DNA from: Lacinutrix sp. MedPE-SW
Lineage (GTDB): Bacteria; Bacteroidota; Bacteroidia; Flavobacteriales; Flavobacteriaceae
DNA length: 64,000 nucleotides
Reading direction: 5' to 3'
Assembly (NCBI RefSeq): GCF_001874145.1
Contig: NZ_MPCX01000001.1
Span: forward strand, 248,001-312,000
The notes under the pieces were generated by a model. It made no database searches. It saw nothing but the letters and a program-made list of their open reading frames with translations, and was not told the origin of the DNA. A program made the position numbers and the translations under genes. This document shows, one piece after another, positions 49,457-64,000 of this stretch. How positions within the stretch are numbered: the stretch's first letter is position 1; the number at the start of each line of letters is the position of its first letter.

Positions 49457-50692
49457 ATGTCAACACTTATAATAAATATTAAAGAACTTTTACAAGTAAG
49501 AGATATAAAGGTTACCAAAGTTAGTGGTGAAGCAATGAAAACGCTGCCAAGTATAAAAAATGCGTTTGTTTTAATAATTGACGATACTATAGTAGATTTT
49601 GGTAAAATGGAAGATTCAATTGGTATTAAGGCTGATAAAGTTATAGATGCCAAAAATAAAATAGTGCTTCCAACATGGTGCGATTCTCATTCACATATTG
49701 TTTATGCTGGAAATCGTGAACAAGAATTTGTAGATAGAATTAATGGCTTAAGCTACGAAGACATTGCAAAACGTGGTGGCGGTATTTTAAATAGTGCTGA
49801 AACACTTAAAAACACTACTGAAGATGAATTGTACAACCAATCTATAGATAGAGTAAACAAAATAATGAAATTAGGCACTGGTGCTTTAGAAATTAAATCT
49901 GGTTACGGTTTATCTACAGAAGCCGAAATTAAAATGCTACGCGTTATTAAAAGAATAAAGCAAAACGCTCCCATTAAAATAAAAGCAACATTTTTAGGTG
50001 CACATGCTGTTCCTAAAATTTATAAAGAAAATAAACAAGATTATATTAATTTAATAATTAATGACATGCTGCCTAAAATAGCTAAACAAAATCTTGCAGA
50101 TTATGTTGATGTTTTTTGTGAAAAAGGCTATTTTTCTTTAGATGATACAACACAAATTTTAAATGCTGCAAAACAATATCACTTGCGTGCTAAAATTCAT
50201 GTTAACCAATTTAATGCTTTTGGTGGTGTTGCTTTAGCTGTAAAACATAATGCTTTAAGTGTAGACCATTTAGAAGAATTAAATAATGAAGACATTAAAG
50301 CTTTAAAAAACAGTGAAACTATGCCAGTGGCTTTACCTTCTTGCTCATATTTTTTAAGTATACCTTACACTCCTGGACGAAAAATAATTGATGCAGGCTT
50401 ACCATTAGCATTGGCTACAGACTATAATCCTGGTTCTACACCATCTGGAAACATGAATTTTGTTGTAAGTACTGCGTGCATAAAAATGAAATTAACTCCA
50501 GAAGAAGCCATTAATGCAGCAACAATAAATGGAGCTTATGCAATGGGAATTGCTAACAATTATGGTAGTATTACAAAAGGTAAAAAAGCAAACTTAATTA
50601 TAACTAAACCTGTTCCTAGTTATAACTATTTACCATATTCTTTTGGCGAAAATAATATAGATCAAGTAATAATAAATGGATCACTTATTTAA
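49457..50692 (+). CDS. hutI: Imidazolonepropionase
   Basis: Third step of histidine degradation: hydrolyses imidazolonepropionate to N-formimino-glutamate. The 411-residue amidohydrolase has the metal motif DSHSHIVYAG (about 75-84), TGALEIKSGYGLS, FLGAHAVP, KIHVNQFNAFGG, SVDHLEE and ATDYNPGSTPSGN. hutH and hutU are not in the window. Overlapped at its 3' end by the next gene (17 bases). A formiminoglutamase gene lies 1.6 kb downstream. Confidence 0.93.
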   Translation: MSTLIINIKELLQVRDIKVTKVSGEAMKTLPSIKNAFVLIIDDTIVDFGKMEDSIGIKADKVIDAKNKIVLPTWCDSHSHIVYAGNREQEFVDRINGLSYEDIAKRGGGILNSAETLKNTTEDELYNQSIDRVNKIMKLGTGALEIKSGYGLSTEAEIKMLRVIKRIKQNAPIKIKATFLGAHAVPKIYKENKQDYINLIINDMLPKIAKQNLADYVDVFCEKGYFSLDDTTQILNAAKQYHLRAKIHVNQFNAFGGVALAVKHNALSVDHLEELNNEDIKALKNSETMPVALPSCSYFLSIPYTPGRKIIDAGLPLALATDYNPGSTPSGNMNFVVSTACIKMKLTPEEAINAATINGAYAMGIANNYGSITKGKKANLIITKPVPSYNYLPYSFGENNIDQVIINGSLI

Positions 50693-51245
50693 TTTTAACA
50701 TTAAAAGTAATGCCACCTGTTCACTTTTAAGCAAATCAATTGGGCTTACAGATTTTAATTCATTATCTAATGCTATTAAAGCTTTACCGTATGGTAGAAC
50801 TAAAAACCGAAGTGATTATCAAGCGATTTTAAAAGAAAATAAAGGAACTTGCTCAACAAAACATGCGTTTTTAAAGGCCGTAGCTTTAGAAAACAACCAA
50901 GACAGCGTAAAACTCTTTATTGGCATTTATAAAATGAATGAAAATAACACCAAAGGCATTGGTTCTATTTTAAATACTTTTAATCTAGACTACATACCAG
51001 AAGCGCATACCTATTTAAAAGTTAATAATAATATTTTAGATATTACAAGTACTCAAACATCTAATACATCATTTAAAAAAGATTTAATTAAAGAAATAGA
51101 AATAAGTCCTAATCAAATTGGAACTTATAAAGTAACATTACATAAAGATTTTATAAGCAAATGGCAGAAAATAAATAATAAGTCATTGTCTTTTGAAACC
51201 TTATGGAAAATTAGAGAAGCTTGTATTAAGCAATTATCAAAATAA
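50676..51245 (+). CDS. Unknown protein with a transglutaminase-like Cys-His-Asp triad, coupled to hutI
   Basis: A 189-residue protein, no signal peptide. Conserved-looking motifs are KGTCSTKHAFLKAVA (Cys59), PEAHTYLKV (His111) and NILDITST (Asp122), in the order and approximate spacing of a papain/transglutaminase-like catalytic triad. Family not recalled by name. It overlaps hutI by 17 bases and ends at a terminator. Possible roles: an amidase or transglutaminase-like hydrolase acting on a histidine-pathway product, or an unrelated cysteine enzyme. Inference from motifs only. Confidence 0.6.
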   Translation: MDHLFNFNIKSNATCSLLSKSIGLTDFNSLSNAIKALPYGRTKNRSDYQAILKENKGTCSTKHAFLKAVALENNQDSVKLFIGIYKMNENNTKGIGSILNTFNLDYIPEAHTYLKVNNNILDITSTQTSNTSFKKDLIKEIEISPNQIGTYKVTLHKDFISKWQKINNKSLSFETLWKIREACIKQLSK

Positions 51246-51279
51246 AAAAAAACTGAAACTATTAAGTTTCAGTTTTTTT
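51246..51279. terminator. Bidirectional intrinsic terminator
   Basis: ACTGAAACT-ATTA-AGTTTCAGT with A7 before and T7 after. It lies between convergent genes. Confidence 0.85.
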
Positions 51280-51301
51280 AAGTAAAAATATGCGACTAAA
51301 T

Positions 51302-52186
51302 CTACTTTAAAGAAAATTGTGAATTTGCGACTAATTCTTTTCCGTTAAAAACATTTACTTTATAAACACCTGATTCAAAATCTGTGTCCTCATCTGTCTT
51401 TGCAATAAATTCGCAAATATCTATGCTGTTATTTTCGTAATTAAATTTACTAATTAAACTATAGTTTAAAGATTCTTCGCCAAAATTAACCTGACTATTT
51501 AAACCTAAAATATTATTTTTTGGGTCTATAACTTGTACAAATAATTCTTTATCTCCAGCCTCTACTAATCTATTTTTAGCAACTGTAAAACAAACTCTTA
51601 TTTTATCACTTCTTCTTGCTCTTTCTGTAGGAATTTGTTTTCCAGATGAACGTTCTATAACTCCATTTACCTTCATACTATTTGCTGTTAAAACTGCTGC
51701 ACTTTCAACAACATCTGCTAAAGCTGTGTTTTGCACTAATAAAGAATCTGTAAAAGTTGTACGCTCTTCTAATTGTATTTTTAAACTGTCAGACGCAGTT
51801 GCTAGTAATTGATTTTCAACTTTTAGCTTATCGTTTTCCGTTAAAATAACAGTCATTTCATCTTGTAAAGCAAGATATTTATTTTTGTATTTCCATAAGC
51901 TTTTTAAGTTCGTTTCAGAAACTTTTAATGAGTCTATTAATCCTTCAATACGCTCTTTTGCTTCAACCAAATTTTGGTTTGCCACTGTATTTTCGCTCAT
52001 TGCAACATCATAGCGATTTGCCATTTCATTAAGTTCTTTTATAACTTTATTTTTTTCTTGAGCTAATACTTTTTCATTTTCTTGTTTTTCCTTGTATAAA
52101 GAAGATGAAAATACGCCAACGCCAATAAATAATGCAATTGCAATACCTAAAGCTACTTTTAATCCTGTGTTTCCTGAATTTGCCAT
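51302..52186 (-). CDS. Membrane-anchored coiled-coil protein with C-terminal beta domain
   Basis: A 294-residue protein: one N-terminal helix (about 9-29), a long heptad-rich coiled coil (about 32-165, e.g. KENEKVLAQEKNKVIKELNE), and a C-terminal beta-rich domain (about 180-294, VNGVIERSSGKQIPTERARR, ending NSQFSLK). Probably an inner-membrane anchored periplasmic or cytoplasmic scaffold. Not a hut enzyme, though it lies between hutI and hutG on the opposite strand. Not recognised further. Confidence 0.65.
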   Translation of the reverse strand: MANSGNTGLKVALGIAIALFIGVGVFSSSLYKEKQENEKVLAQEKNKVIKELNEMANRYDVAMSENTVANQNLVEAKERIEGLIDSLKVSETNLKSLWKYKNKYLALQDEMTVILTENDKLKVENQLLATASDSLKIQLEERTTFTDSLLVQNTALADVVESAAVLTANSMKVNGVIERSSGKQIPTERARRSDKIRVCFTVAKNRLVEAGDKELFVQVIDPKNNILGLNSQVNFGEESLNYSLISKFNYENNSIDICEFIAKTDEDTDFESGVYKVNVFNGKELVANSQFSLK

Positions 52187-52278
52187 AATTTAAATGTTTA
52201 AGAATAATCTTTGATTCTTTTAATTATTAATTATATTTCTATTTTTAAAATACTTTAATTTCTCAAAACAATTATTAA

Positions 52279-53301
52279 ATGAGTAAACTTGTTTTATATA
52301 AAGCAAACAAAGCTAAAAACATTATTAATAAACGCAATGGCGAAATTAAATTTGGTGAACGCATAAAATATTTATCCACGTATGATAACATATACGGTGA
52401 GTTAAAAAATTTAGACGTTAAATATGTAATATTAGGTTTACCAGAAGACATTGGAGTATTTGCAAACCAAGGAAATACGGGTACTAATAAGGCATGGGAA
52501 GCAACAATTAAAATTTTGTTAAATACTCAATTTAACCAAGAAAATAATGCCGAAAAAGTGCTTTTGTTAGGTTATTTAGATTTTTCAAAAGAGTTAAAAT
52601 TAATTTCTAATTTAAAAAATACAAATAGTTCAGATTTAAAAAAAGCAGCAAAAATAACAGAAGAAATAGATAAAGATGTAACAGATATAATTTGTAAAAT
52701 TATTAAAGCAGGCAAAAAACCTATAATAATTGGTGGCGGTCATAATAACGCATATGGAAACATAAAAGGCACATCGTTAGCATTAAACAAAAAAATAAAT
52801 GTTATTAATTTTGATGCGCATACAGATTTTAGAGCATTAGAAGGCAGACATAGCGGAAATGGTTTTAGTTACGCTTTCGCAGAAGGCTTTTTAAATAGGT
52901 ATTTTATTTTTGGCTTACATAAAAACTATACTTCACAAGCTATTTTTGATACAGCTTTAAATGCCGAAAAAAGAATTAAATACAATACTTTTGAAGAATT
53001 AGAAGTAGAAAAAACACTTAAATTTAAGCCGCAAATGAAAAAAGCTTTAAAATTTATTTCTAAAAGTAGTTTTGGTATTGAAATAGATTGCGATGCTATA
53101 ATTAATATACCAAGTAGTGCTAAAACACCTTCTGGTTTTTCTGTTAACAAAACACGACAATTTGTTCATTTTTTTGGTAGTGATAAAAACGCCAAATATT
53201 TGCATATTTGTGAAGCTGCACCAACCAATAAAACAGCAACTCAAGTTGGAAAATTAATTTCTTACTTAATAACCGATTTTATTAGAGCTAATGGACGTTA
53301 A
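52279..53301 (+). CDS. hutG: Formimidoylglutamase (arginase/ureohydrolase family)
   Basis: Cleaves N-formimino-glutamate to glutamate and formamide, completing histidine degradation. The 340-residue protein has the manganese-site motifs of the ureohydrolase family: GGGHNNAYG, NFDAHTDFR (D-x-H-x-D) and EIDCDAI (D-x-D). An agmatinase or arginase identity is less likely given hutI close by. It is followed by a GNAT gene overlapping 11 bases. Confidence 0.85.
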   Translation: MSKLVLYKANKAKNIINKRNGEIKFGERIKYLSTYDNIYGELKNLDVKYVILGLPEDIGVFANQGNTGTNKAWEATIKILLNTQFNQENNAEKVLLLGYLDFSKELKLISNLKNTNSSDLKKAAKITEEIDKDVTDIICKIIKAGKKPIIIGGGHNNAYGNIKGTSLALNKKINVINFDAHTDFRALEGRHSGNGFSYAFAEGFLNRYFIFGLHKNYTSQAIFDTALNAEKRIKYNTFEELEVEKTLKFKPQMKKALKFISKSSFGIEIDCDAIINIPSSAKTPSGFSVNKTRQFVHFFGSDKNAKYLHICEAAPTNKTATQVGKLISYLITDFIRANGR

Positions 53302-53758
53302 TATTATTCCTTTTAACAAAAACTATTCAAAAGATTTCTATGCCTTAAATATAGAGTGGTTAGAAACTTTTTTTTATGTCGAACCTTTTGATAGAGAAGT
53401 ACTCACAAATCCAGACCAGTATATAATTAACAAAGGTGGTTTTATTTTTTTCGCTAAAATAGAAGATACAATTGTTGGTACATTTGCTTTAATGCCTTTA
53501 AAAGAAGATAATGCTTATGAGCTAACAAAAATGGCTGTTTCTCCTAAACATAGAGGTTTTAAAATTGGGCAAAAGCTATTACAATATGGTATTGATTTTG
53601 CTAAAAACAATAATTTTAACAGACTCCTTCTCTACTCTAACACAAAGCTTGAAAATGCGATCTATTTATATAGAAAATTTGGCTTTAAAGATATTGATGT
53701 AGAAAAAGATTGCCCGTACGAACGTTGTAATATAAAGATGGAATATTTCGATTTATAA
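53291..53758 (+). CDS. GNAT-family N-acetyltransferase
   Basis: A 155-residue GNAT enzyme with the acetyl-CoA loop MAVSPKHRGFKIGQKLL (motif A) and a C-terminal LYRKFGFKDIDV segment (motif B). It overlaps the end of hutG by 11 bases, so translationally coupled. Substrate unknown; possibly glutamate or a related amino compound from histidine breakdown. Its stop is one base from the stop of the convergent 57-residue gene. Confidence 0.85.
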   Translation: MDVNIIPFNKNYSKDFYALNIEWLETFFYVEPFDREVLTNPDQYIINKGGFIFFAKIEDTIVGTFALMPLKEDNAYELTKMAVSPKHRGFKIGQKLLQYGIDFAKNNNFNRLLLYSNTKLENAIYLYRKFGFKDIDVEKDCPYERCNIKMEYFDL

Positions 53759-53759
53759 A

Positions 53760-53933
53760 TTAATCCTCTGATGCATTTTGAGAACGTATAGTAAATATCA
53801 TAGCTACAATTAATAAAACACTAGAAACGGTGCGAAGCCAGAATTGTTTATCGAAGGCTTCAGAGTCTAAAATATTTACAAATATTAACCCAATACTTGC
53901 TAAAATTACTATAAATGGTAAAGCTTTTTTCAT
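53760..53933 (-). CDS. Unlisted 57-residue two-helix protein, last gene of the AAA+ operon
   Basis: The minus strand has an ATG at 53933 and a TAA ending at 53760. The product begins MKKALPFIVILASIGLIFVN and has a second helix around RTVSSVLLIVAMIFTI, with a short polar loop and tail. It begins three bases after the stop of the 581-residue gene, so it is almost certainly cotranscribed. It is too short for automated long-frame lists. Function unknown; probably a small membrane accessory of its upstream neighbour. Confidence 0.65.
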   Translation of the reverse strand: MKKALPFIVILASIGLIFVNILDSEAFDKQFWLRTVSSVLLIVAMIFTIRSQNASED

Positions 53934-53936
53934 AAT

Positions 53937-55682
53937 TTAAATACCTTTTAAAGAGTCTAATTCTTTTTTTAAACGCTTTATTTCTTCTTCTTTTTTTAGT
54001 TTTTTAATAGAATCTACTTTACGTTGTAAGGACTCAACAGTTTCTTCTGTATTGTCTTCGTTTAAATTTTCTATAGTAATTGATTCTAATTCATCTCCAA
54101 CAACATCAATAATCTTAGTGTCTTCAACAAAATATTCTTCAATACCTTCGCTTGATCTCCAAGCTTCATTTAATTGGTTATAAACTTCTTTTTCCCAACC
54201 GCTTGGATGTTTAACATCTATCCATACAACATCACGATATTCGCTATCTATTAAGGCTAAATCTGGTGTTGCAGAACCATCAAAATTATCTGATCCTTCA
54301 CGAATAGCGGCTATTGTTCCTAGAAAAAACAATCGCTTTCTTCCTGCAATATTCTTAATATAAGGTCTAAACTCTACCGGTTTATTTACTGTCCAATCAA
54401 ATTCTTTACGAGATTCTATAACCTTTAATGGCATTGCAGACACTCCTGCATAACCTTGTTTTTTTGCTGCGTGATCATAATAAAACAGTTTATCTGTACC
54501 ATCGGCAGGAATAAAAACACTGTATGTTAAACTTGTGCGCTCATCGCCTACTGGCTCTAAACCGAACCAATGGTATAAACCGCTATAAGCGTCTATTTTG
54601 GTATCTTCAAAATTAAAATCGGTTACAAATGGTTGTTGGTTTTGGTCGTCTGCTAAATCTGGAATTTTAACTGCAGTTTCCATATTCCATGGTAATGGGT
54701 CGCTAAAACCACCTAAAAATTTAAGCGATTCTGCTTGAAGTCTTGATACTTTTTCTGCTAATGTATTTTGTTTTGTTAGGTATGGATAATTTTTCATTTC
54801 ATTTGGTGCAATGTATTGTCCTTTACCTATTGTTATACGTTCAATATAATCGTTTACATCATGCTCACCGTTTTCAATAACCATAACACCACCAAAACTT
54901 GGATAAGGAAAAAAGAAACCTTTCCATTTTATTAAACTTACAACTTCAACCCATTGACCTGTATCGTTTTTCATGTAATACGTATCGCTTGGTTCATAAT
55001 TTATAAGCATCCAAGGATTAAAACGTTGCACAACTGCATTGTAAGTGTTTCTACTAAATTTTAACGATTCGCCAATAGAAAATGTTACTGGTATTCTATT
55101 CTCGTTAGAAAAACGCGGAAATGGCGTTGTACTTGAAACGGCAAAAACCTCTTCGGTATTATCACGCATACCTTGCCAGTAATACTTCTCGGTTGGTTGT
55201 ATGGCCATGGTCCATTTATTTTGTCCATCTACTCTAACTAAATGTGGTAAAGAAACATCTTTAGTTTCACCAACACTTTCGTTTCCCATAGAATGGATAT
55301 TTTTTAATGGTTGTATGCGTTCGTTTTGTGTTAATGGTAAATCATGTATTTCAATTTTATTTAAGTCGTTAAACACGTTATAGGTTTTCATATAATCGTA
55401 TAACTGCATACTCCAACCTACAAAATATAACGCACCAAAAAATACAGCCAAAATAGCTAGTATTAAAATACGCTTTCCTGTTTCGGCTTGCTTTCTAAAT
55501 GTTTTTAACCCAAAAAACAACACGATAGCACAAAGTAATATGATGAAAATAAATTTTCTAATAAATAATAATGCTGGTTGGTAATCATCACGCATAAAGA
55601 ATAATAATGCTACAATTATTAGACTTAGTACAATGACTATTCGCTTTTGTTTTCCGCCTTTATTCCAGTAATTTTTTATCAT
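53937..55682 (-). CDS. Unknown membrane-anchored protein (581 aa), AAA+ operon
   Basis: Three N-terminal membrane helices (about 14-30, 37-59, 71-90) are followed by a large soluble domain (about 110-530) rich in aromatic residues, with segments EKYYWQGMRDNTEEVFAVSS, LYHWFGLEPVGDERTSL and RRKRLFF-like FLGTIAAI. A Lys/Glu coiled-coil tail (about 545-581) ends it. No signal peptide; the soluble domain is probably cytoplasmic or periplasmic depending on topology. No family recognised. It lies downstream of the 174-residue gene in the minus-strand block. Confidence 0.7.
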   Translation of the reverse strand: MIKNYWNKGGKQKRIVIVLSLIIVALLFFMRDDYQPALLFIRKFIFIILLCAIVLFFGLKTFRKQAETGKRILILAILAVFFGALYFVGWSMQLYDYMKTYNVFNDLNKIEIHDLPLTQNERIQPLKNIHSMGNESVGETKDVSLPHLVRVDGQNKWTMAIQPTEKYYWQGMRDNTEEVFAVSSTTPFPRFSNENRIPVTFSIGESLKFSRNTYNAVVQRFNPWMLINYEPSDTYYMKNDTGQWVEVVSLIKWKGFFFPYPSFGGVMVIENGEHDVNDYIERITIGKGQYIAPNEMKNYPYLTKQNTLAEKVSRLQAESLKFLGGFSDPLPWNMETAVKIPDLADDQNQQPFVTDFNFEDTKIDAYSGLYHWFGLEPVGDERTSLTYSVFIPADGTDKLFYYDHAAKKQGYAGVSAMPLKVIESRKEFDWTVNKPVEFRPYIKNIAGRKRLFFLGTIAAIREGSDNFDGSATPDLALIDSEYRDVVWIDVKHPSGWEKEVYNQLNEAWRSSEGIEEYFVEDTKIIDVVGDELESITIENLNEDNTEETVESLQRKVDSIKKLKKEEEIKRLKKELDSLKGI

Positions 55683-55686
55683 AATA

Positions 55687-55709
55687 TTTCCCTGCGTAAG
55701 CAGGAATCT
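55687..55709. repeat. Short REP-like palindrome
   Basis: CCTGC-GTAA-GCAGG (55691-55695, 55700-55704) flanked by ATTTC before and AATCT after. It sits just upstream of the 581-residue gene start. Very similar in layout to 57601-57621. Confidence 0.6.
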
Positions 55710-55755
55710 GTTTAGTTGTTATTTAATTTCTATAGGTTCAGAATCAAGTACAGAA

Positions 55756-56280
55756 TTACAAATGTCCTTTATCTTTTAATCGTTGTCTTGCACTTTTTTT
55801 AGGAGTTTTTGGTTCTTCCTTAATTTCTTTTTTTGCTTCTTGCACTGCTTTTGTGTCTTTAGTTTCAAGATCTTTAATAAAGTCTTTACCTTTATCTACA
55901 GTGTCTTTTACTGCATCGAAAAGTGAATCTCCTTTTTCATCCATAACTTCTGAAGATTTAAAGACAAAATTAGCTAAATACGTACCGATTAATGTTCCAG
56001 ATATACTAGCAATAAATAGTTGAATGGTGTACATATCTATTGGAATTATTAATCTTAAAACTAATACACCAATTAAAAACAAAACACCAATATAAACCAA
56101 TCGCATTAAAAAGGACTGCTGATATAAAAAGCCTTTTTTACTATCGTCTTTCATTTGTAGCTCTTTAGAATAAAACAGCTTATTGAAAAATTTATAAATT
56201 TTATTACTCTTAGATTCTCTCCAATATAGTAGTATTCCAAAAAGAATTGATGCGATGAATATTATAATTTCTATTGTCAT
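55756..56280 (-). CDS. Membrane protein (174 aa), AAA+ operon
   Basis: Three hydrophobic segments (about 4-20, 57-80, 84-105) then a Lys/Glu/Asp-rich C-terminal half (about 120-174, with DTVDKGKDFIKDLETKDTK), soluble and probably helical. The second and third helices form a hairpin. No recognised family. It could anchor the operon's cytoplasmic proteins at the membrane. Confidence 0.65.
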   Translation of the reverse strand: MTIEIIIFIASILFGILLYWRESKSNKIYKFFNKLFYSKELQMKDDSKKGFLYQQSFLMRLVYIGVLFLIGVLVLRLIIPIDMYTIQLFIASISGTLIGTYLANFVFKSSEVMDEKGDSLFDAVKDTVDKGKDFIKDLETKDTKAVQEAKKEIKEEPKTPKKSARQRLKDKGHL

Positions 56281-56310
56281 TTGAGTAGTTTTTTTATGAT
56301 ATTATGTTTT

Positions 56311-56337
56311 GTTATTCTGCGCTATGACGTAAAATCT
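56311..56337. repeat. Diverged REP-like sequence
   Basis: The sequence GTTATTCTGCGCTATGACGT and the AAAATCT after it resemble the GTCATTCTG..(palindrome)..AATCT elements I remember from flavobacterial intergenic regions, but the palindrome is imperfect. Weak, listed because two clearer copies lie in neighbouring gaps of the same operon. Confidence 0.35.
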
Positions 56338-56360
56338 ATTTACTTATAAGTAGCAAAACA

Positions 56361-57596
56361 TTAAATATTGTTACTAATTTCTTCTATTACCCAATCTTTT
56401 AAAGAGTCGTTCCAAGTCTCGTATGTTTTATAAAATTGTTCTTTATCATACCAATATAAAAATAAAACATCTTTAGCAGAAACATTTATTAATAGCTTCC
56501 ATATTAAGTCTTGATGCTTTGCGTGTAAAGATGAGTGTGGTTTATGTAAAGCCTCAAAAAACTTAACATCTACAATATCTGCAATTTTAAATTCGTTACT
56601 TACTTCTAATTTTTCCAGATAACGTTCTACGCTCATTACACGTTTTCTACTTTCTATATTAAGCTTATTTAAATAGCTTTTATATAACACTTTATCGTTT
56701 AAAATATTAGTAAATGGATGTTGTGCTTCTTTTATAGCTTCGGCAAAAACAAACTTTTTTATACGCTCATATCTTGGTGTTTTAATCTCTTTTTCTAAAT
56801 CATATTCTATAATTATATGATCTCGTAATTTATCCATTAATTCTGGTTGCGAGATATGGTATATTAACACATCATGAGTTGTATCTTTTATTGCTTCTTT
56901 ATGCCATTTTTTATCTTCAAAAACTACAATTTCTTTTATAAAATCTCGTAATACATAAACACCGCCAAAAGCTTTTGTGTAGAATGAACTTGTTGTAAAC
57001 TGAATTTCATGCAACTTTAAATCTCGTGTTCTTAAATCGCCATATTTTTTAGCTGATTCTAGTAATTGCGCATGAATGTCTTCGTCTATAAAATTATTAC
57101 CGTGCTTAAATTTTGCTACAAGCTCTAATTGGTCTTTTTGTATGGTATCTAAATTATCTATTAAATGAAAATTTATAGTAACAACATCGTATTTTAAAAC
57201 ATCTAACGGTTCGTAAAACGCGTCTATATTTTGATCAAAATCTAAACAAATTGCACTGTCTCGAGTTATATTATTAATTTTAGCTTCGTGTGTTCTAAAT
57301 ACATGTTGCATCATTTCACGATCAAACGTGTGAAATGGTACGTAAACGGGTTTGCCTTTTTGTAATGGTGAAATTATAATAGCGTGCATATTTGCCTCAC
57401 CATTATTAAGATAATGCAAATTTTGTTTTTCTTCTGCTATTTCTGGACTCCAACCTTTTCCATCTATAGAAAATGTAGTGAGTTTTGTTGGTAAAAAACC
57501 AAGTTTTACTAAGCACTTATTATAACGTTCTACTAGCTTACCGCTAATAGGAATAAGTTCGCTTCTATAAAGATTTGCTTGTTTTAATTTATCCAT
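56361..57596 (-). CDS. Unknown protein (411 aa), DUF6638-like, AAA+ operon
   Basis: A soluble protein without membrane helices or signal peptide. It starts MDKLKQANLYRSELIPISGK. Recognisable segments are FSIDGKGWSPEIAEEKQN, ANMHAIIISPLQKGKPVYVP and FKHGNNFIDEDIHAQLLE. The C-terminal third is helical with charged faces. I recall DUF6638 for proteins of this kind but cannot confirm; function unknown in either case. It lies between the Nudix gene and the 174-residue gene. Confidence 0.6.
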   Translation of the reverse strand: MDKLKQANLYRSELIPISGKLVERYNKCLVKLGFLPTKLTTFSIDGKGWSPEIAEEKQNLHYLNNGEANMHAIIISPLQKGKPVYVPFHTFDREMMQHVFRTHEAKINNITRDSAICLDFDQNIDAFYEPLDVLKYDVVTINFHLIDNLDTIQKDQLELVAKFKHGNNFIDEDIHAQLLESAKKYGDLRTRDLKLHEIQFTTSSFYTKAFGGVYVLRDFIKEIVVFEDKKWHKEAIKDTTHDVLIYHISQPELMDKLRDHIIIEYDLEKEIKTPRYERIKKFVFAEAIKEAQHPFTNILNDKVLYKSYLNKLNIESRKRVMSVERYLEKLEVSNEFKIADIVDVKFFEALHKPHSSLHAKHQDLIWKLLINVSAKDVLFLYWYDKEQFYKTYETWNDSLKDWVIEEISNNI

Positions 57597-57600
57597 TTTA

Positions 57601-57621
57601 TTTCCGCGAAAGCGGTAATCT
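57601..57621. repeat. Short REP-like palindrome
   Basis: CCGC-GAAA-GCGG (57604-57607, 57612-57615) flanked by TTT before and AATCT after. It lies between the Nudix gene and the 411-residue gene, 5-25 bases from the latter's start. Confidence 0.6.
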
Positions 57622-57679
57622 TAATTTAATTACTCAAAGTTTAATTTGCACAAAGGATTTATTTTATATTAAATACAAA

Positions 57680-58282
57680 CTATAACAAATTATTTATTTG
57701 TAAATACTGTAATAAAATAATGGTTTTAGCATCTGCTATTTCTCCAGTTTCAATGCTTTTTAAAGCTGTTTTAAAAGGCATCTCTATAATTTCGATATCT
57801 TCCTGTTCACTTTCAACGCCACCACCAGAGCTCACTTTCATATCACTGGAATATTCTCCAACAAAATAGTGAAGTTTCTCGGTTAATGCGCCTGGTGATG
57901 AATAGGCATCAAAAATCTTGGTGACTTTAGGTAATTTATAACCCGTTTCTTCTTCTACTTCTCTAATTATGCAGGTTTCTGGTGTATCGTCATCTAACAT
58001 CCCTGCACAAGTTTCTAGTATAAAACCAGTTTTATGTTGGTTTAAATATGCCGAAACTCTAAACTGTTTTACCAAAATTACAGTTTGCTTTTCTTTATTA
58101 TATAATAAAATTGTTGCGCCATCACCACGATTGTAAGATTCTCTCCGTTTATGCGTCCATTCGCCAGAACTCATTTTATAATCGAAAAAAATTTCGCTTA
58201 AAGTTGCCCAACCTTTATGTAAGGTTCTTGTTGTTATATTTTTTATTCTATTTCCCAAACTGTTCTCTTGCTTTGGTTTCAA
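57680..58282 (-). CDS. Nudix hydrolase, NudK-like
   Basis: A 200-residue Nudix protein. The Nudix box is GMLDDDTPETCIIREVEEETGY (about 103-124), which has the longer spacing between Gly and REV seen in E. coli NudK (GDP-mannose pyrophosphatase). GDGATILLYNKEKQTVILVKQFR and YSSPGALTEKLHYFVGEY match the same subfamily. Reaction by family: GDP-mannose to GMP and mannose-1-phosphate. Its start overlaps the AAA+ gene stop by 35 bases. Its place inside the operon suggests a nucleotide-sugar or dinucleotide link to the complex, unproven. Confidence 0.85.
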   Translation of the reverse strand: MKPKQENSLGNRIKNITTRTLHKGWATLSEIFFDYKMSSGEWTHKRRESYNRGDGATILLYNKEKQTVILVKQFRVSAYLNQHKTGFILETCAGMLDDDTPETCIIREVEEETGYKLPKVTKIFDAYSSPGALTEKLHYFVGEYSSDMKVSSGGGVESEQEDIEIIEMPFKTALKSIETGEIADAKTIILLQYLQINNLL

Positions 58283-60206
58283 TATTTAATTGATTTACGC
58301 GTGCATCAACTTTTCGTTTAAAATCGGTATCTGCAATGGTTGCCACATTATCTAAATAACGTACAACTTCTTGTCTTCTAATTTCAGAAAAATCTAAACC
58401 TTTCATGTTTTGCTTCATTAATTCCTGAAGCATATTTAACTTGGTATTGTAATCTTTTTTGAAATAAATTTCTGGATTATCAAACCAATCTTGTTCTAAA
58501 TCAAAATCGGTTAAACGTAATGATATTGCCGATTGAATATTTCTAACATCTCTTGAAGAAAAGAATGGAAATATTTTTTGAATCTCTAAATATAAATTAG
58601 CAAAAAATTCATGCTCGTTAACCTTGTTTTGCTTTTCGGCTTTATGGTAAGCTTCTAAAACTCTAGCTTCGGTTGGTTTTTCTATAGTATTTAAAATATC
58701 TCCCATGTTTTTTGCTAAACCTTGCGCTTTTAAATATTCGTAATCACTTGGGCTTTTCATATTTATAAATTCTGGCATGGTTTGCTCAAGTTTTCGCCAC
58801 CATAAGTGGTCTTGGTCTAAGAAATCGTGCTCTGTTCTTGCACCATCAATTTTAAATCGACCTTGTACACGAGAAATTACCGCTTTATCTAACATTTCTG
58901 GTAAATTGGTGAATAAGCCAATTGAGCTATTACCATAATTTACAGCGTAAGCGCCTTCTGTATAACGCAGAAAAACACCAATAACTTCTTTTACACCTGC
59001 CGAAACACCTTGTGCTGTTCTTTCTTGTAAATTATTTTCGGCATCATCAATTGGTGCAAAAATTAATTTTGAAGGATCTTGCATTGGTTTCATCCATTCT
59101 ACCATTTTCTCTGCACTTCCACCTTGAAATGTACTTATTAAAGTATCTGGCATTGGATGAAATAAAAACGGAATATCTAAATTATCGCAATGTTCTTTTA
59201 ATCGTGTTGCAATGGCTGCAATAAGCATACTTTTTCCTGTTCCAGGAATACCGTAACCCATAAACACTGGCATAAAACCACCAAGCTCTTGAAACGGATT
59301 CTTTTTAGCCTCGAAATCGTAGCTTAGCATACGTTCTGTTAAACGTCTTGCAAAGTGCTTTGCATCTCTGTTTCCTACTATTTGTTCGAATTGTATTTTA
59401 TTAAATTCAACGCTTTTTGCTGTTCCTGCAAATACGTTGTCCCAACCTGAAATGGCAAAATCGCTATTTTCTAATTTATAGGTTCTATCGACAATGGTTT
59501 CAGTATACTCTAAGCTGCTTTTACGTAGTTGAATTTCATCTATTAATGCCTCGAAATAAACCACTGTAAAATCTACTACATCTTTATCGGTTTTTATTAT
59601 TTCTGGATGTCCTAAATATTTATCGTAGTAAAATAAACTACACGCAATACCTTTTAATGGTGACATAAACGAAACTTCTGGAAGTCCAGCAAATTTTTGT
59701 TTCATTACAGATAAATCGTCTGATGCATGTGGTTTTAAATTATGAAGCACATTGTAAGCCATAGAAAACAGCATAAATGCTGTTGCTGTATGCATTTTAC
59801 TTTCGTATTCTCGTTTTCCGTTACTATCTAAAGCACTTCTACGCTCATGCAAACCAGATAAACCTGAAGCATCGTAATAACTATCTTTCACCCAAATACC
59901 TAATGCTATACCTTCTTGAACTGCGTATAATGTTTGATTTAAATGCACAGGAATGGCAATAGAATCTGGTAATAATCGCTTTTTTAAAGCTAATATGGTT
60001 TTTGACACCGAAGTTACCTGAGTCGCTCCACTTCCATTATTGGCACGAGATAAATACAATAAAATAGATTCATCTTTTGCGTCTTTATCTTTATTTTTAG
60101 CTCTTGCGCCTTGTTCCCATTGTATACTTTTTAGGTAACCACTAGCTTCGTCTCGAAGCATGTTTAATTCGTTTTGTTTTATAGGGAAAGTAGAGTTATG
60201 CTCCAT
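58248..60206 (-). CDS. AAA+ ATPase of the uncharacterised operon
   Basis: 652 residues from the ATG at 60206 (MEHNSTFPIKQNELNML); an ATG at 60230 would overlap the previous gene. A long N-terminal helical domain (about 1-290) precedes one AAA+ module. Walker A is GIPGTGKS (319-326); Walker B is LIFAPIDDAEN (381-391), with Asp-Asp instead of the usual Asp-Glu. A sensor-1-like Asn follows in GLFTNLPEML, and a candidate arginine finger is R446 (KAVISRVQGR). A helical C-terminus (about 500-652) follows. The N-domain is unusually long, suggesting substrate or partner binding. Probably a hexameric protein-remodelling ATPase. Not matched to a named clade. Confidence 0.85.
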   Translation of the reverse strand: MEHNSTFPIKQNELNMLRDEASGYLKSIQWEQGARAKNKDKDAKDESILLYLSRANNGSGATQVTSVSKTILALKKRLLPDSIAIPVHLNQTLYAVQEGIALGIWVKDSYYDASGLSGLHERRSALDSNGKREYESKMHTATAFMLFSMAYNVLHNLKPHASDDLSVMKQKFAGLPEVSFMSPLKGIACSLFYYDKYLGHPEIIKTDKDVVDFTVVYFEALIDEIQLRKSSLEYTETIVDRTYKLENSDFAISGWDNVFAGTAKSVEFNKIQFEQIVGNRDAKHFARRLTERMLSYDFEAKKNPFQELGGFMPVFMGYGIPGTGKSMLIAAIATRLKEHCDNLDIPFLFHPMPDTLISTFQGGSAEKMVEWMKPMQDPSKLIFAPIDDAENNLQERTAQGVSAGVKEVIGVFLRYTEGAYAVNYGNSSIGLFTNLPEMLDKAVISRVQGRFKIDGARTEHDFLDQDHLWWRKLEQTMPEFINMKSPSDYEYLKAQGLAKNMGDILNTIEKPTEARVLEAYHKAEKQNKVNEHEFFANLYLEIQKIFPFFSSRDVRNIQSAISLRLTDFDLEQDWFDNPEIYFKKDYNTKLNMLQELMKQNMKGLDFSEIRRQEVVRYLDNVATIADTDFKRKVDARVNQLNIETKAREQFGK

Positions 60207-60216
60207 GTTTTTTAAA

Positions 60217-60564
60217 TTATATGAAAGCAAGAATTAAGATGATAATAATTGTAATGCATAGCACCATTAAACATCCTTTGTCCTTTTTTTCTTGATTATC
60301 TTTTAGTTTCTTTATTAATTTATTAGCATTTCTTTCTTTTAAGAAGTAACCTCTCCACGCATTATCTGGACTTGATAAACACCAAATAACATCACACTTT
60401 GTACACTTATATATGTAATCTGAAACTAATTTGCGATGCTCTCTTAGACCTAATACAACTAATATTTTTGCTTCTAACTTTTTATTTAACAATAAATCAA
60501 ATTCGACAAAATCTATTTGTGTTGCAAATTTTTCATATTCTATATTAAAGCAGAAGTTACACAT
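60217..60564 (-). CDS. Zinc-ribbon tail-anchored small protein (115 aa)
   Basis: Two Cys pairs, C2/C5 (CNFC) and C54/C57 (CTKC), suggest a split zinc ribbon; C62 follows in DVIWC. The C-terminus is a single hydrophobic helix (about 97-115) preceded by a Lys-rich stretch, typical of a tail-anchored protein. It sits 10 bases before the AAA+ start. Possible recruiter of the AAA+ ATPase to the membrane. Function unknown. Confidence 0.6.
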   Translation of the reverse strand: MCNFCFNIEYEKFATQIDFVEFDLLLNKKLEAKILVVLGLREHRKLVSDYIYKCTKCDVIWCLSSPDNAWRGYFLKERNANKLIKKLKDNQEKKDKGCLMVLCITIIIILILAFI

Positions 60565-60572
60565 AAACTTTT

Positions 60573-61628
60573 TTATTTCATCTTAAGATCTGCTACTTGA
60601 AAAGGTGGTTTTGCCAACTTGTTCATAATTTCAGGATTTTTGTTGTATAATAATTGAATGATACGATGTGGTGCAAACACGTAGTTTTGCTTTATTACAT
60701 CGCTCCATTTCTGTAAGGTTTGTTTACTAAAATAGCCACCTTCTTTAAATTCACTACCAGATAAAACCTCATCTATTTTTAGAGATAATGCATAGGATTC
60801 TAATGGTATTTCTTTTTTAGCTATGCTTTCTAAAATACTGTGCGTTAAAATATTTTCGTCTTTTGCAAAAATGTTATGGAATGGCCCTAAATCTATACGT
60901 TTTATGTGTTTAGGTTTTACGTCTTTTAATCGTCTGTCTATACCATAAGCCATAGTGTCTAACGGCATTTTTCTGTCTGCAACGTTTTTTAGTGTATCGT
61001 AAAGTTCTTCTTTTATACTTTCTGGGTTTTTACCATCGTAATAGAAATACATAAAACAGATAAATGGTCTGTTTAATGCCACGTCGTAAAAACTCCAACT
61101 TACCATATATTCTGCTTGACTTCCTGCTTCTGCTTCTATTATTTTACCTTGTACAAAACGATTGAATATATATTTTTGTTCTACAGAAGTGTAATAAACA
61201 ATGGATGCTGCTTGAAAGAGTTTGTCGCGTCTTACAGGTTCCTTTTTATGCATTAATTGCGTTAAAAACTCTTCTTGTAATTCGCTTACGTCTTTTAATT
61301 TATTTAAGTAATTATCGCGTAGCGATAAATCGTTGTACAGATAACGAAACTCTAAGTAGTTTGGGAAACCAGAATCTGTTAAATCTACCTTCATATTATC
61401 TTCATCGTCGTACATGTATTTTACACGCATGGCTTCGATAGAATATAATAGTAGGTCGCAGTATTGTTTAAAATACGTCATTTCTTGTACTGTGCATAAT
61501 GTGTTGAATTGCACACTTGTAATGAGTTCTTTTAATGCAAAATCTACTTTTTTATGATAGAACACGTATTGTTCTTTACTGTCTAAAACAGCTGAGTCTA
61601 ATGGTGTTACTATGTGGTTTATTGACAT
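60573..61628 (-). CDS. Unknown cytoplasmic protein (351 aa), AAA+ operon
   Basis: No membrane helix or signal peptide. Mainly helical with several aromatic-rich stretches (PFICFMYFYYDGKNPESI, YVFAPHRIIQLLYNKNPEIM). A charged middle (about 215-265) includes RRLKDVKPKHIKRIDLGPFH. No motif or family recognised. It begins after a repeat-containing gap of 176 bases and is separated from the zinc-ribbon gene by 8 bases. Confidence 0.65.
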   Translation of the reverse strand: MSINHIVTPLDSAVLDSKEQYVFYHKKVDFALKELITSVQFNTLCTVQEMTYFKQYCDLLLYSIEAMRVKYMYDDEDNMKVDLTDSGFPNYLEFRYLYNDLSLRDNYLNKLKDVSELQEEFLTQLMHKKEPVRRDKLFQAASIVYYTSVEQKYIFNRFVQGKIIEAEAGSQAEYMVSWSFYDVALNRPFICFMYFYYDGKNPESIKEELYDTLKNVADRKMPLDTMAYGIDRRLKDVKPKHIKRIDLGPFHNIFAKDENILTHSILESIAKKEIPLESYALSLKIDEVLSGSEFKEGGYFSKQTLQKWSDVIKQNYVFAPHRIIQLLYNKNPEIMNKLAKPPFQVADLKMK

Positions 61629-61679
61629 TTCTTTTAGTGAAAAGTTAATAGTTAGAAGTAAAAAGTCCTTACTTGTTTC

Positions 61680-61800
61680 CTTACACTTAATCGCATATGC
61701 GTTAAGGATTGAACGGCTTGTTTGAGCTCCTCACAGAGAGCGAGTAGTGAAAGCCTGACCTACTTTTGCCATTAAAAGCAAAAGTAGGTAACGCCATCAT
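61680..61800. repeat. Composite palindromic (REP/MITE-like) element between operon genes
   Basis: Three stem-loops in a row: CTTAA-T-CGCATATGCG-TTAAG (61686-61706, one bulged T), GGCTT / AAGCC (61715-61719, 61751-61755) enclosing GCTC / GAGC, and CCTACTTTTGC / GCAAAAGTAGG (61759-61769, 61778-61788) with an 8-base loop. The stretch is clearly richer in G and C than surrounding intergenic DNA. I remember similar sequences in other flavobacterial genomes, but have not verified that here. It lies between the coiled-coil gene and the 351-residue gene. Confidence 0.6.
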
Positions 61801-61804
61801 TATT

Positions 61805-63148
61805 TTATCCTAGCAAATCGTCGTTGCTTGTGTCTTCCTTTTTTGGTGCTGGAGCATTATCTCCATCGCCTGAAGGTGCGTTTGCATCTGCTGCGTAATA
61901 GTCTTCGAAAATTTCTTTCATGTCTATACCGTAACGTTCTGCAAAGTTCTTTTGGATGTCTACATCTTTTGCACGAATCTCGCTTAAAGCTTCTGCATAA
62001 CTACCGTAAACGCCTTGCATTACTTTTTCGTGAACTGGAATGTTGTCCATCATTTCTTGTCTTGCTTTTGCACTTGCGGTATGCATAGATGCTAGTGTTT
62101 CTCCAATATGCTCATCGGTTTTAACACCTAAATGTTCTAAAATTGCTGCGAATTCTTGGTCTGTTCTTGCTTTTAAAGCCACTACATAACCATCGTAATA
62201 TTTTAAACGCTCGTCTGTATCACTTTTTAATTTTGCACGATGCGTTTGTAAATTACTACGTAAAGATGTTAATACTTTAATGGTTAAATTATGTTTATGC
62301 ACGAAACTGTCTTTTGAAGCGGCTAGTGTTGTGTAAGCGTTTTTAAGTCCTTCTAACTCTTCTACTTTTTGCTCTAAAGTGGTAACTTTTGATAAGGCTT
62401 CTGAGTATTCGGCAGATTGTTTATCTACTATTTCTTCTAGTGCTTGACGTGCTTGTTTAAGTAAAGCGTATTGCTCTTCTAGCTTCGCTTCGGTTTCTTT
62501 CTTTTTCTCTAAGGCTTTTGTATGGTTTTTAGATGCTTCTACAATAGCGTCTTTAAGTTTTTCTTCTACTTCTTTAATCTCTACTTCACGGTTTTTTAAA
62601 CGCGTTACTGCTGCTTGAGATTTGTATGATAACTCGCTTAATAATGTTTGTACATCTGCGCTTTCTATACGCTCTTGAAACATTGCTTTTGCCTTATTGT
62701 CTGCTCCTGCTCTAACTTTCTCTGCATCTTTTAATGCTTGTTCTGCTTTTGCGATTTTGCTTTTACGTCCCCAAAGGTTATTCCACCAGGTGTCTGGTTT
62801 GTTTTGTGCGTCTTCAAGTTCAACCTTTGCTCGTTCTAATGCTTTTTGTGCATCGTCTATTACTTTTTGTTCGGTTTCGTTTAAAGAAGAAAAACGCTCG
62901 AACAATATACCAACCTCATCTTGATAATCTGTTAAGTCTTTAATCGCATCTAAAAGTGTGGTGCGATCTTTTTCTGCCATGTTTACAACATCGTCTAATG
63001 TTGCGTTAAGAATTTTTTGACGGCTTTCTGGATCGTCTTCTTGAGCAAGCTTAGACTTCATGGTATCTATAGCTTTTCCCCAATTAACATCTACTTTTTC
63101 TGTTTTTTCGTTTGAATTTGTTTCTAGTAAGTCAAAATCGTCAGACAT
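61805..63148 (-). CDS. Long coiled-coil protein (447 aa), first gene of the AAA+ operon
   Basis: A soluble protein dominated by heptad-rich helix (about 85-310, including KVELEDAQNK, AKAEQALKDAEK and SEYSEALSKVTTLEQKVEEL). A more compact C-terminal region (about 315-420, SLRSNLQTHRAKLKSDTDER and GVKTDEHIGETLASMH) and an acidic/proline tail end it. Similar proteins are sometimes labelled microtubule-binding because of the coiled coil, which says nothing about function; a distant relation to TelA-type proteins is possible but not visible in motifs. Probably a filament or scaffold for the AAA+ protein. Confidence 0.7.
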   Translation of the reverse strand: MSDDFDLLETNSNEKTEKVDVNWGKAIDTMKSKLAQEDDPESRQKILNATLDDVVNMAEKDRTTLLDAIKDLTDYQDEVGILFERFSSLNETEQKVIDDAQKALERAKVELEDAQNKPDTWWNNLWGRKSKIAKAEQALKDAEKVRAGADNKAKAMFQERIESADVQTLLSELSYKSQAAVTRLKNREVEIKEVEEKLKDAIVEASKNHTKALEKKKETEAKLEEQYALLKQARQALEEIVDKQSAEYSEALSKVTTLEQKVEELEGLKNAYTTLAASKDSFVHKHNLTIKVLTSLRSNLQTHRAKLKSDTDERLKYYDGYVVALKARTDQEFAAILEHLGVKTDEHIGETLASMHTASAKARQEMMDNIPVHEKVMQGVYGSYAEALSEIRAKDVDIQKNFAERYGIDMKEIFEDYYAADANAPSGDGDNAPAPKKEDTSNDDLLG

Positions 63149-63325
63149 AAGGTATTTTTAGTTTTAAGGTTGTACATTTTATGCTAAGCAATTTCGTTAA
63201 AAAAATCTATTTTTAAAATAAAATTGCATACTTATATGTATTAACTTTAATTTAAATGTTACAATTTTACTTTCTGAAATAAAGAAATTATCTTTAACAA
63301 ATCTAATAACTCTTATATATACAAA

Positions 63326-64000
63326 ATGAAAAACTACCTAATTCTTGTTTTAGCCATTTGTTTGATGGCTTGTAAAAATGATGCAAAAACAAATAATAAA
63401 GATATTGATGTTGAAGAGATACCTGAATTAAAAATTTCTCCAATAGAACACGCAACAATGGTTTTAGAGTATGACAACAAAACAATATACATTGATCCTA
63501 CTGGTGGAAAGGACGCTTTTGAAACATTTAAGAAGCCAGATTATGTTGTTATTACAGATATTCACAGCGATCACTTACATTTAAACACTCTTGAATCTTT
63601 AGATTTAGGTGATGCCAAAGTAATTGCTCCTGAAGCTGTTTATGAAAATTTGCCAGAACATATAAAAGCTATCACAACTACCATGATTAATGGTGCTAAA
63701 GAAAAATTTGAAACTTTTAATATTGAGGCTATACCTATGTATAATTTAAGGGAAGAAGCTTTACAATTTCACCCAAAAGGTAGAGGAAACGGTTATGTTT
63801 TTACTTTTGGTAAAGAACGTGTTTATATTTCTGGAGATACTGAAGATATTCCTGAAATGCGTGCTTTACAAAATATAGATAAAGCATTTATTTGTATGAA
63901 TTTACCATATACAATGACTGTAGAAAGTGCTGCGGATGCAGTTTTAAGCTTTAAGCCTCTAGAGGTCTTTCCTTACCATTATAGAGGAACAGAAGGCTAT
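63326..64000 (+). CDS. MBL-fold metallo-hydrolase lipoprotein, UlaG-like (partial, 3' end outside)
   Basis: The start ATG at 63326 gives a lipoprotein signal (LMAC, lipidated Cys16), then an MBL fold: VMLEYDNKTIYIDPTG-like strand, TDIHSDHLH (His80, Asp82, His83, His85), and YISGDTED with the second metal Asp. 225 residues are visible and the frame is open at the window edge. The first metal-binding His of the classical HxHxDH is replaced by Asp78. UlaG-like hydrolases act on lactones or phosphodiesters; substrate unknown. The 177-base gap before it shows nothing I can identify. Confidence 0.8.
   Translation, partial: MKNYLILVLAICLMACKNDAKTNNKDIDVEEIPELKISPIEHATMVLEYDNKTIYIDPTGGKDAFETFKKPDYVVITDIHSDHLHLNTLESLDLGDAKVIAPEAVYENLPEHIKAITTTMINGAKEKFETFNIEAIPMYNLREEALQFHPKGRGNGYVFTFGKERVYISGDTEDIPEMRALQNIDKAFICMNLPYTMTVESAADAVLSFKPLEVFPYHYRGTEGY

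Follow-up and report, generated by a model that had tools for sequence, protein, structure and literature searches.

Do the nine genes that follow one another on the minus strand from position 63148 down to 53760 of a 64,000-nucleotide stretch of the Lacinutrix sp. MedPE-SW genome (contig NZ_MPCX01000001.1; the whole stretch is called the window here) belong together, and if so, what could they do? An earlier note had read them as a single operon built around an AAA+ ATPase. All nine open reading frames (ORFs) were recovered at the positions, on the strand and with the lengths reported there, and are transcribed in the order CC447, U351, Zn115, AAA, Nudix, DUF6638, M174, M581 and M57. The close packing ascribed to them holds for four of the eight junctions (3 base pairs between M57 and M581, an overlap between Nudix and AAA, 10 base pairs between Zn115 and AAA when counted from the AAA start codon at 60206, and 8 base pairs between Zn115 and U351), whereas the other four, at 73 to 176 base pairs, exceed the limit of an overlap or fewer than 15 bases. 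A Pfam scan of the nine proteins gave matches above cut-off for three, namely AAA, NUDIX and the uncharacterised family DUF6638, and left the remaining six without a family, as had been proposed. The comparison with relatives reveals an AAA operon that is strongly conserved and has an exchange slot inside it; no description of such an operon was found.

An AAA relative is present in 87 of 299 Flavobacteriaceae genomes (E 1e-20); apart from the window's own protein, these relatives are 68 to 99% identical and full length, except for one at a contig end. Gene order was compared in 87 loci, comprising the window, stretches of up to 20 kb around 85 AAA matches, and one additional genome. The six genes CC447, U351, AAA, DUF6638, M174 and M581 were all found in 81 of the 87 loci, and in each of these 81 they share one strand and the same order. 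Nudix occurs in 39 of the 87, always between AAA and DUF6638, Zn115 in the window only (1/87), and M57 in the window and one locus of the same genus (2/87). The nine-gene unit was rejected on these counts: the stable unit consists of six genes, and Nudix, Zn115 and M57 are not stable members of it. All three genomes listed for the genus carry the core AAA gene, and among 395 sampled Bacteroidota genomes DUF6638 was detected in five, all from the window's family and all with the core. Mean identity within Flavobacteriaceae is about 83% for CC447 and about 78% for AAA, as against 60% for U351 and 57% for DUF6638, so that the coiled-coil protein and the ATPase are the most conserved pair, as could be expected if they touch each other.

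The arrangement extends well beyond the family. A translated search of plasmid records with AAA gave ten matches in Vibrio, Sinorhizobium, Shinella and Rhizobium; a DUF6638 match lay near AAA in six of these records. The search for DUF6638 did not pick up the Vibrio record, whose annotation places this gene behind AAA. Profiles built from Flavobacteriaceae identified U351 ahead of AAA in all five plasmid loci fetched (E 4e-15 to 5e-22), and the CC447 profile matched weakly in the same five (E 4e-3 to 7e-9). A scan of genome contigs confirmed at least 567 AAA relatives among at least 591 candidates, of which the best 80 were kept; judging by their names, we take these 80 to be Alphaproteobacteria. 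Together with 40 Flavobacteriaceae loci, the five plasmid loci and the window this made 126 loci, and 119 of them contain all four genes CC, U, AAA and DUF6638, on one strand and in that order in every case (119/119), at a mean identity of 19 to 25% between the two phyla. To lessen the bias of seeding with AAA, a further survey was seeded with DUF6638 only. It was detected in 26 of 398 genomes of the phylum of locus L113 (Aestuariispira, hence Pseudomonadota), and all 26 carry these four genes in identical order. They include the genome of L113, and one of the 26 (G798) had previously been reached through the AAA scan. No AAA relative was found in phage records at E 1e-5.

Downstream of DUF6638 the operon continues with membrane genes that differ between lineages: M174 and M581 in Flavobacteriaceae, and s88 with DUF1523, DUF1523 alone, or DUF2333 in Alphaproteobacteria, the Pfam names having been checked on three DUF1523 and two DUF2333 proteins. 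Where the core is complete, DUF6638 is succeeded by a recognised membrane gene in 37 of 39 loci from Flavobacteriaceae and in 76 of 80 from Proteobacteria; none of these membrane genes was recognised after DUF6638 in the Vibrio locus. For six of the nine genes, the shared order far exceeds what chance would give. What the earlier note had put forward, one undescribed AAA-based set that includes a scaffold-like protein and membrane partners, is kept as a block in relatives and is not scattered among them (119/119 and 26/26 for the four genes, and 81 of 87 Flavobacteriaceae loci for the six, with identical order in 81/81). On the strength of this order, the core genes almost certainly form one functional unit.

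The motor of this unit, the third core gene (58248..60206, minus strand, start codon ATG at 60206), encodes a classical-AAA ATPase with a PF00004 score of 36.4 bits against a cut-off of 21.2. In 122 of 122 aligned AAA sequences from both phyla, the P-loop GxGxPGTGK[ST], an Asp-Asp Walker B, a sensor-1 Asn and two Arg residues are invariant; the Asp-Asp pair had already been noted in the window protein, and it takes the place of the canonical Asp-Glu of the Vps4/CdvC type throughout. The two Arg residues occupy the position of the arginine fingers of classical AAA proteins. The nearest sequences in the PDB are p97-like, Rpt, PEX6, Vps4 and katanin chains, aligned across the AAA domain with at most a few residues more, and none of them covers the N-domain of about 270 residues. 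No MIT domain was listed in the Pfam scan at E <= 1, a threshold that a divergent MIT domain could escape. The closest solved relatives are machines that thread or disassemble their substrates.

Its partners are less familiar. CC447 (61805..63148, minus strand), a long coiled-coil protein, is the first gene in the 119 four-gene loci; its AlphaFold2 model is nearly all helical, with helices of up to 122 residues, at low confidence (mean predicted local distance difference test, pLDDT, 62.3). U351 (60573..61628, minus strand), second in the conserved order, has no family and no solved relative that we could find, a PDB sequence search giving two insignificant nanobody matches. The fourth core gene (56361..57596, minus strand) encodes the 411-residue DUF6638 protein (PF20343, 107.8 bits against a cut-off of 27), and its AlphaFold2 model is confident (pLDDT 85.2, predicted template modelling score 0.82). 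The PDB sequence search returned nothing for it, Foldseek nothing at E <= 0.001 in PDB or BFVD, and VIA-align a best match of Z 4.0 over 41 residues; such weak or missing matches do not make the fold new. Hydropathy bears out the membrane helices assigned from the sequence, two in M174 (55756..56280, minus strand; with a charged tail), three in M581 (53937..55682, minus strand; at the N-terminus, followed by a large domain), two in M57 and one at the C-terminal end of Zn115. M174 and M581 are both core genes in Flavobacteriaceae.

We tentatively favour remodelling of a coiled-coil scaffold by the AAA protein at the inner membrane, a reading to which we would give somewhat less than an even chance. 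The ATPase would form a ring that pulls on or disassembles CC447, while U351 and DUF6638 would serve as adaptors or regulators. The machine would be held at the inner membrane by the membrane proteins that differ between lineages and whose genes come directly after DUF6638 (M174 and M581 in the window, s88 and DUF1523, or DUF2333, in Alphaproteobacteria); these would act as anchors or sensors. Such a machine would probably maintain or reshape something at the envelope, and it is in this sense that we infer the membrane complex with a stress or envelope role that had been suggested from gene order.

Several observations weigh against this proposal. An Asp in place of the catalytic Glu of Walker B could mean slow or absent ATP hydrolysis, and the matches of CC447 are generic coiled coils only. 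M174 and M581 are not detectably homologous to DUF1523 or s88 (hhalign, nothing above 8%, DUF2333 lying outside the comparison), so that a common anchor role rests on position. There are also incomplete loci. Among the six Flavobacteriaceae exceptions, the last three genes are absent from L062 and the first two from L063, despite ample flank in both; L085 is without M174 and M581, and L066, L305 and L308 lie near contig ends. Seven of the 126 loci lack one or more of the four core genes; L105, L125, L131 and L155 are cut by contig ends, and L062, L063 and L117 are incomplete despite ample flank.

The same ATPase could instead be an assembly or rescue chaperone whose task is to remodel one particular enzyme or membrane-protein complex, as Rubisco activase does, with CC447, U351 and DUF6638 as substrate adaptors. 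This idea fits the N-domain, which is large and conserved, and the two soluble, adaptor-like proteins for which no solved relative was found, and the Asp-Asp Walker B recalls the Asp of Rubisco activase. However, no candidate client complex was seen to be constantly encoded nearby, and flanking genes vary among the loci looked at; we regard this explanation as unlikely.

Remodelling of a scaffold, the reading that we favour, concerns the invariant genes, and the operon has a second, variable part. In Proteobacteria, the junction between AAA and DUF6638 reaches 250 base pairs or more in 61 of 80 loci, compared with 30 of 80 between CC and U, 9 of 80 between U and AAA and 0 of 76 after DUF6638; in Flavobacteriaceae the corresponding figure for AAA-DUF6638 is 50 of 81, the other four junctions giving 16, 17, 17 and 5 of 81. 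Since 31 of the 81 Flavobacteriaceae loci and 19 of the 80 proteobacterial ones have a slot shorter than 250 base pairs, its genes are optional and are best regarded as exchangeable accessories. Some insert ORFs are spurious frames in loci of high GC content, and sense and antisense frames were compared for this reason: of 63 proteobacterial slots, 28 are filled to more than 85% by a single sense ORF and 2 by an antisense one, and of 50 Flavobacteriaceae slots, 35 and 0. Many inserts are fitted closely to their neighbours. Of 63 slot genes in Proteobacteria, 24 have a possible start exactly 4 nucleotides before the end of AAA, and 31 run 1 or 4 nucleotides into the start of DUF6638; in Flavobacteriaceae these counts are 0 of 50 and 8 of 50, and a possible start lies between -20 and +40 nucleotides in 42 of 50.

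What occupies the slot changes. At an AAA identity of at least 95%, an insert family (BLAST E 1e-5) is common to 4 of 57 pairs of loci, pairs that are not independent, coming from only 19 loci of which 12 are Ruegeria. Sharing is commoner below that level, with 10 of 37 pairs between 90 and 95% identity, 15 of 48 between 85 and 90% and 19 of 114 between 80 and 85%, partly because Flavobacteriaceae share the Nudix gene. In Alphaproteobacteria, mainly Ruegeria, unrelated genes occupy the slot even between near-identical operons. The cargo includes DUF559, a PIN protein with a Phd antitoxin, Mrr, DUF2971, AbiJ_NTD4, SnoaL, an amidohydrolase, chemotaxis-type proteins and duplicate AAA copies. The AAA-DUF6638 junction is an exchange slot for accessory genes, with Nudix as its occupant in the window.

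Some slots are unusually large or composite. Two loci of the same genus, L080 (G072) and L336 (G717), have slots of about 11 and 9.5 kb, each with a Nudix gene; that of L080 additionally holds a second AAA copy and an ORF of 1490 amino acids, and the core of G717 was initially overlooked because of the about 9.5 kb inside its slot. L074, L080 and L112 each have a second AAA copy in the slot. In L100, on pSymB of Sinorhizobium meliloti, the slot carries an endonuclease-domain gene and an ISRm16 transposase gene.

Core and slot could be combined in a two-layer machine of a new kind, in which the invariant CC-U-AAA-DUF6638 remodelling core at the membrane is joined by alternative effectors or clients plugged into the slot (nucleases, Abi-like proteins, small membrane proteins or Nudix), co-expressed with it and working through it. 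We consider this decidedly unlikely.

With much the same low probability, the locus might be a modular anti-phage or conflict system whose core senses or gates and whose slot gene (a membrane protein, nuclease, AbiJ-like protein, PIN protein or Nudix) is the exchangeable effector. The turnover between near-identical operons speaks for it (4 of 57 pairs sharing an insert family), as do cargo such as Mrr, DUF559, PIN with Phd antitoxin, DUF2971 and AbiJ_NTD4, and the 24 of 63 proteobacterial slot genes able to start 4 nucleotides inside the end of AAA. Slot proteins are also rich in membrane helices, predicted in 46 of 70 from Alphaproteobacteria as compared with 125 of 494 flanking ORFs of like size, or with 68 of the 239 that have relatives at other loci, and their best PADLOC matches reach 5e-33 and 1.2e-23 as compared with 3.1e-6 among 77 flanking ORFs; the flanking-ORF controls in both comparisons share the weakness of spurious frames. 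However, 77 slot proteins touch 19 PADLOC families and the 77 flanking ORFs 15, and because these counts are nearly equal the PADLOC signal of the slot is only suggestive. The core proteins match PADLOC weakly or generically, at best IetA for AAA (2.1e-5) and JetC for the coiled coil (5.4e-5), and much of the cargo is without defence annotation. The loci with a short slot show that the slot gene is dispensable, and the strong conservation of CC and AAA, together with the presence of the core AAA in each listed genome of the genus, likewise argues against a conflict system.

A true bacterial pair of the endosomal sorting complex required for transport III (ESCRT-III) and Vps4 type, with CC447 as a distant PspA/Snf7 homologue and AAA as its disassembly ATPase, appears very unlikely. 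The weak sequence matches of AAA include CdvC and Vps4, a Vipp1 chain is among the Foldseek hits of CC447 (rank 30, E 0.2), and hhalign gave the coiled-coil profile a 36% probability against PspA over 150 columns, with 0.4% for reversed PspA and 0.4% for TelA. But splitting either profile lowers the PspA value to 0.1 to 20%, and the unrelated coiled coil RmuC scores 11% and its reversed form 8%, the controls as a group (RmuC, the SerRS arm and reversed profiles) reaching up to 11%. PF04012 (PspA_IM30) was matched neither by CC447 in the Pfam scan nor by any protein of its own genome (E <= 0.001), the long helices of its model are of low confidence (pLDDT 62), and AAA has no listed MIT domain. 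Chance, with unrelated genes merely lying together, accords with gaps of up to 176 base pairs and the non-conserved genes inside, and stands for Zn115 and M57, but is refuted for the conserved genes by identical order in 119 of 119 and 26 of 26 loci from two phyla.

The three genes outside the stable unit differ in character. Nudix (57680..58282, minus strand), in the AAA-DUF6638 slot here and in 39 of 87 Flavobacteriaceae loci overall, had been called NudK-like: it belongs to the YffH/AdpP subfamily TIGR00052 (170.1 bits against a cut-off of 79.55) and falls short of NF011585, the equivalog for GDP-mannose pyrophosphatase NudK (215 against 234 bits). The true start of its gene probably lies inside the end of AAA. 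Zn115 (60217..60564, minus strand), a small Cys-rich protein specific to the window among the 87 loci, has the Cys pairs and the C-terminal membrane helix that had suggested a tail-anchored zinc ribbon, but its Pfam match to such a ribbon is insignificant (E 0.12). M57 (53760..53933, minus strand) is a small two-helix membrane protein.

The gap between CC447 and U351 holds a dispersed repeat element (61690..61800, minus strand) with an inverted repeat: eight further places in its own genome match parts of it at 71 to 94% identity, and it partially matches itself on the opposite strand. A perfect 12-base palindrome, CCGCTTTCGCGG, lies at 57604-57615, just ahead of the DUF6638 start; with up to two mismatches, CCGCTTTCGCGG has two matches in the window against 0.48 expected. 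An Rfam search of window positions 53000-64000 gave nothing above gathering scores. Downstream of the operon, at 49457-53758, are genes that we take, by reading, to be histidine-degradation-like, with a GNAT-like gene; relatives of the ORFs at 52279-53301, 53291-53758 and 51302-52186 lie downstream in a number of Flavobacteriaceae loci.

These results tie CC447, U351 and DUF6638, which are without described function, and several membrane families to an AAA motor by gene order across two phyla, and give the AAA-remodeller field a bacterial test case with named partners. The variable slot is a short, gene-bounded place in which to find new accessory genes; if these act through the core, the design is a new modular one, and if not, the operon offers a clean case of gene exchange within an operon. 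A literature search for DUF6638 gave no paper, and among the titles and abstract openings listed for DUF1523, DUF2333 and the gene combination none describes the operon. Among known systems, the classical AAA remodellers (p97/CDC48, Vps4, katanin, PEX6 and proteasomal Rpt) share with the window AAA the P-loop, the sensor-1 Asn and the Arg pair; the family described here differs in having Asp-Asp and not Asp-Glu, an N-domain without a solved sequence relative, and uncharacterised operon partners. TelA/Ter loci likewise combine coiled-coil and membrane proteins in one locus. This candidate was rejected: profile searches, which the earlier note had named as a test, did not place the genes in a described Ter/TelA operon, with no PF05816 TelA in the own genome (E <= 0.001), an hhalign probability of 0.4% and no Ter-type Pfam family among the nine proteins. 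ESCRT-III/Vps4, Cdv and PspA systems also pair a coiled-coil protein with a classical AAA gene and have membrane partners. In the part of a phage shock protein (Psp) survey available to us (PMC11237479), bacterial PspA adjoins AAA proteins, whereas U351 and DUF6638 have no counterpart and no such gene set is described there; moreover, CC447 is not a detectable PspA_IM30 member. The slot itself resembles the defence hotspots bounded by core genes of Pseudomonas aeruginosa, which, in the accessible part of their description (PMC10250203), likewise hold exchangeable, partly defence-like genes between fixed flanks. In contrast to those hotspots, the exchange seen here mostly involves one or a few genes inside a single operon, which in Proteobacteria often overlap a neighbour by a short stretch.

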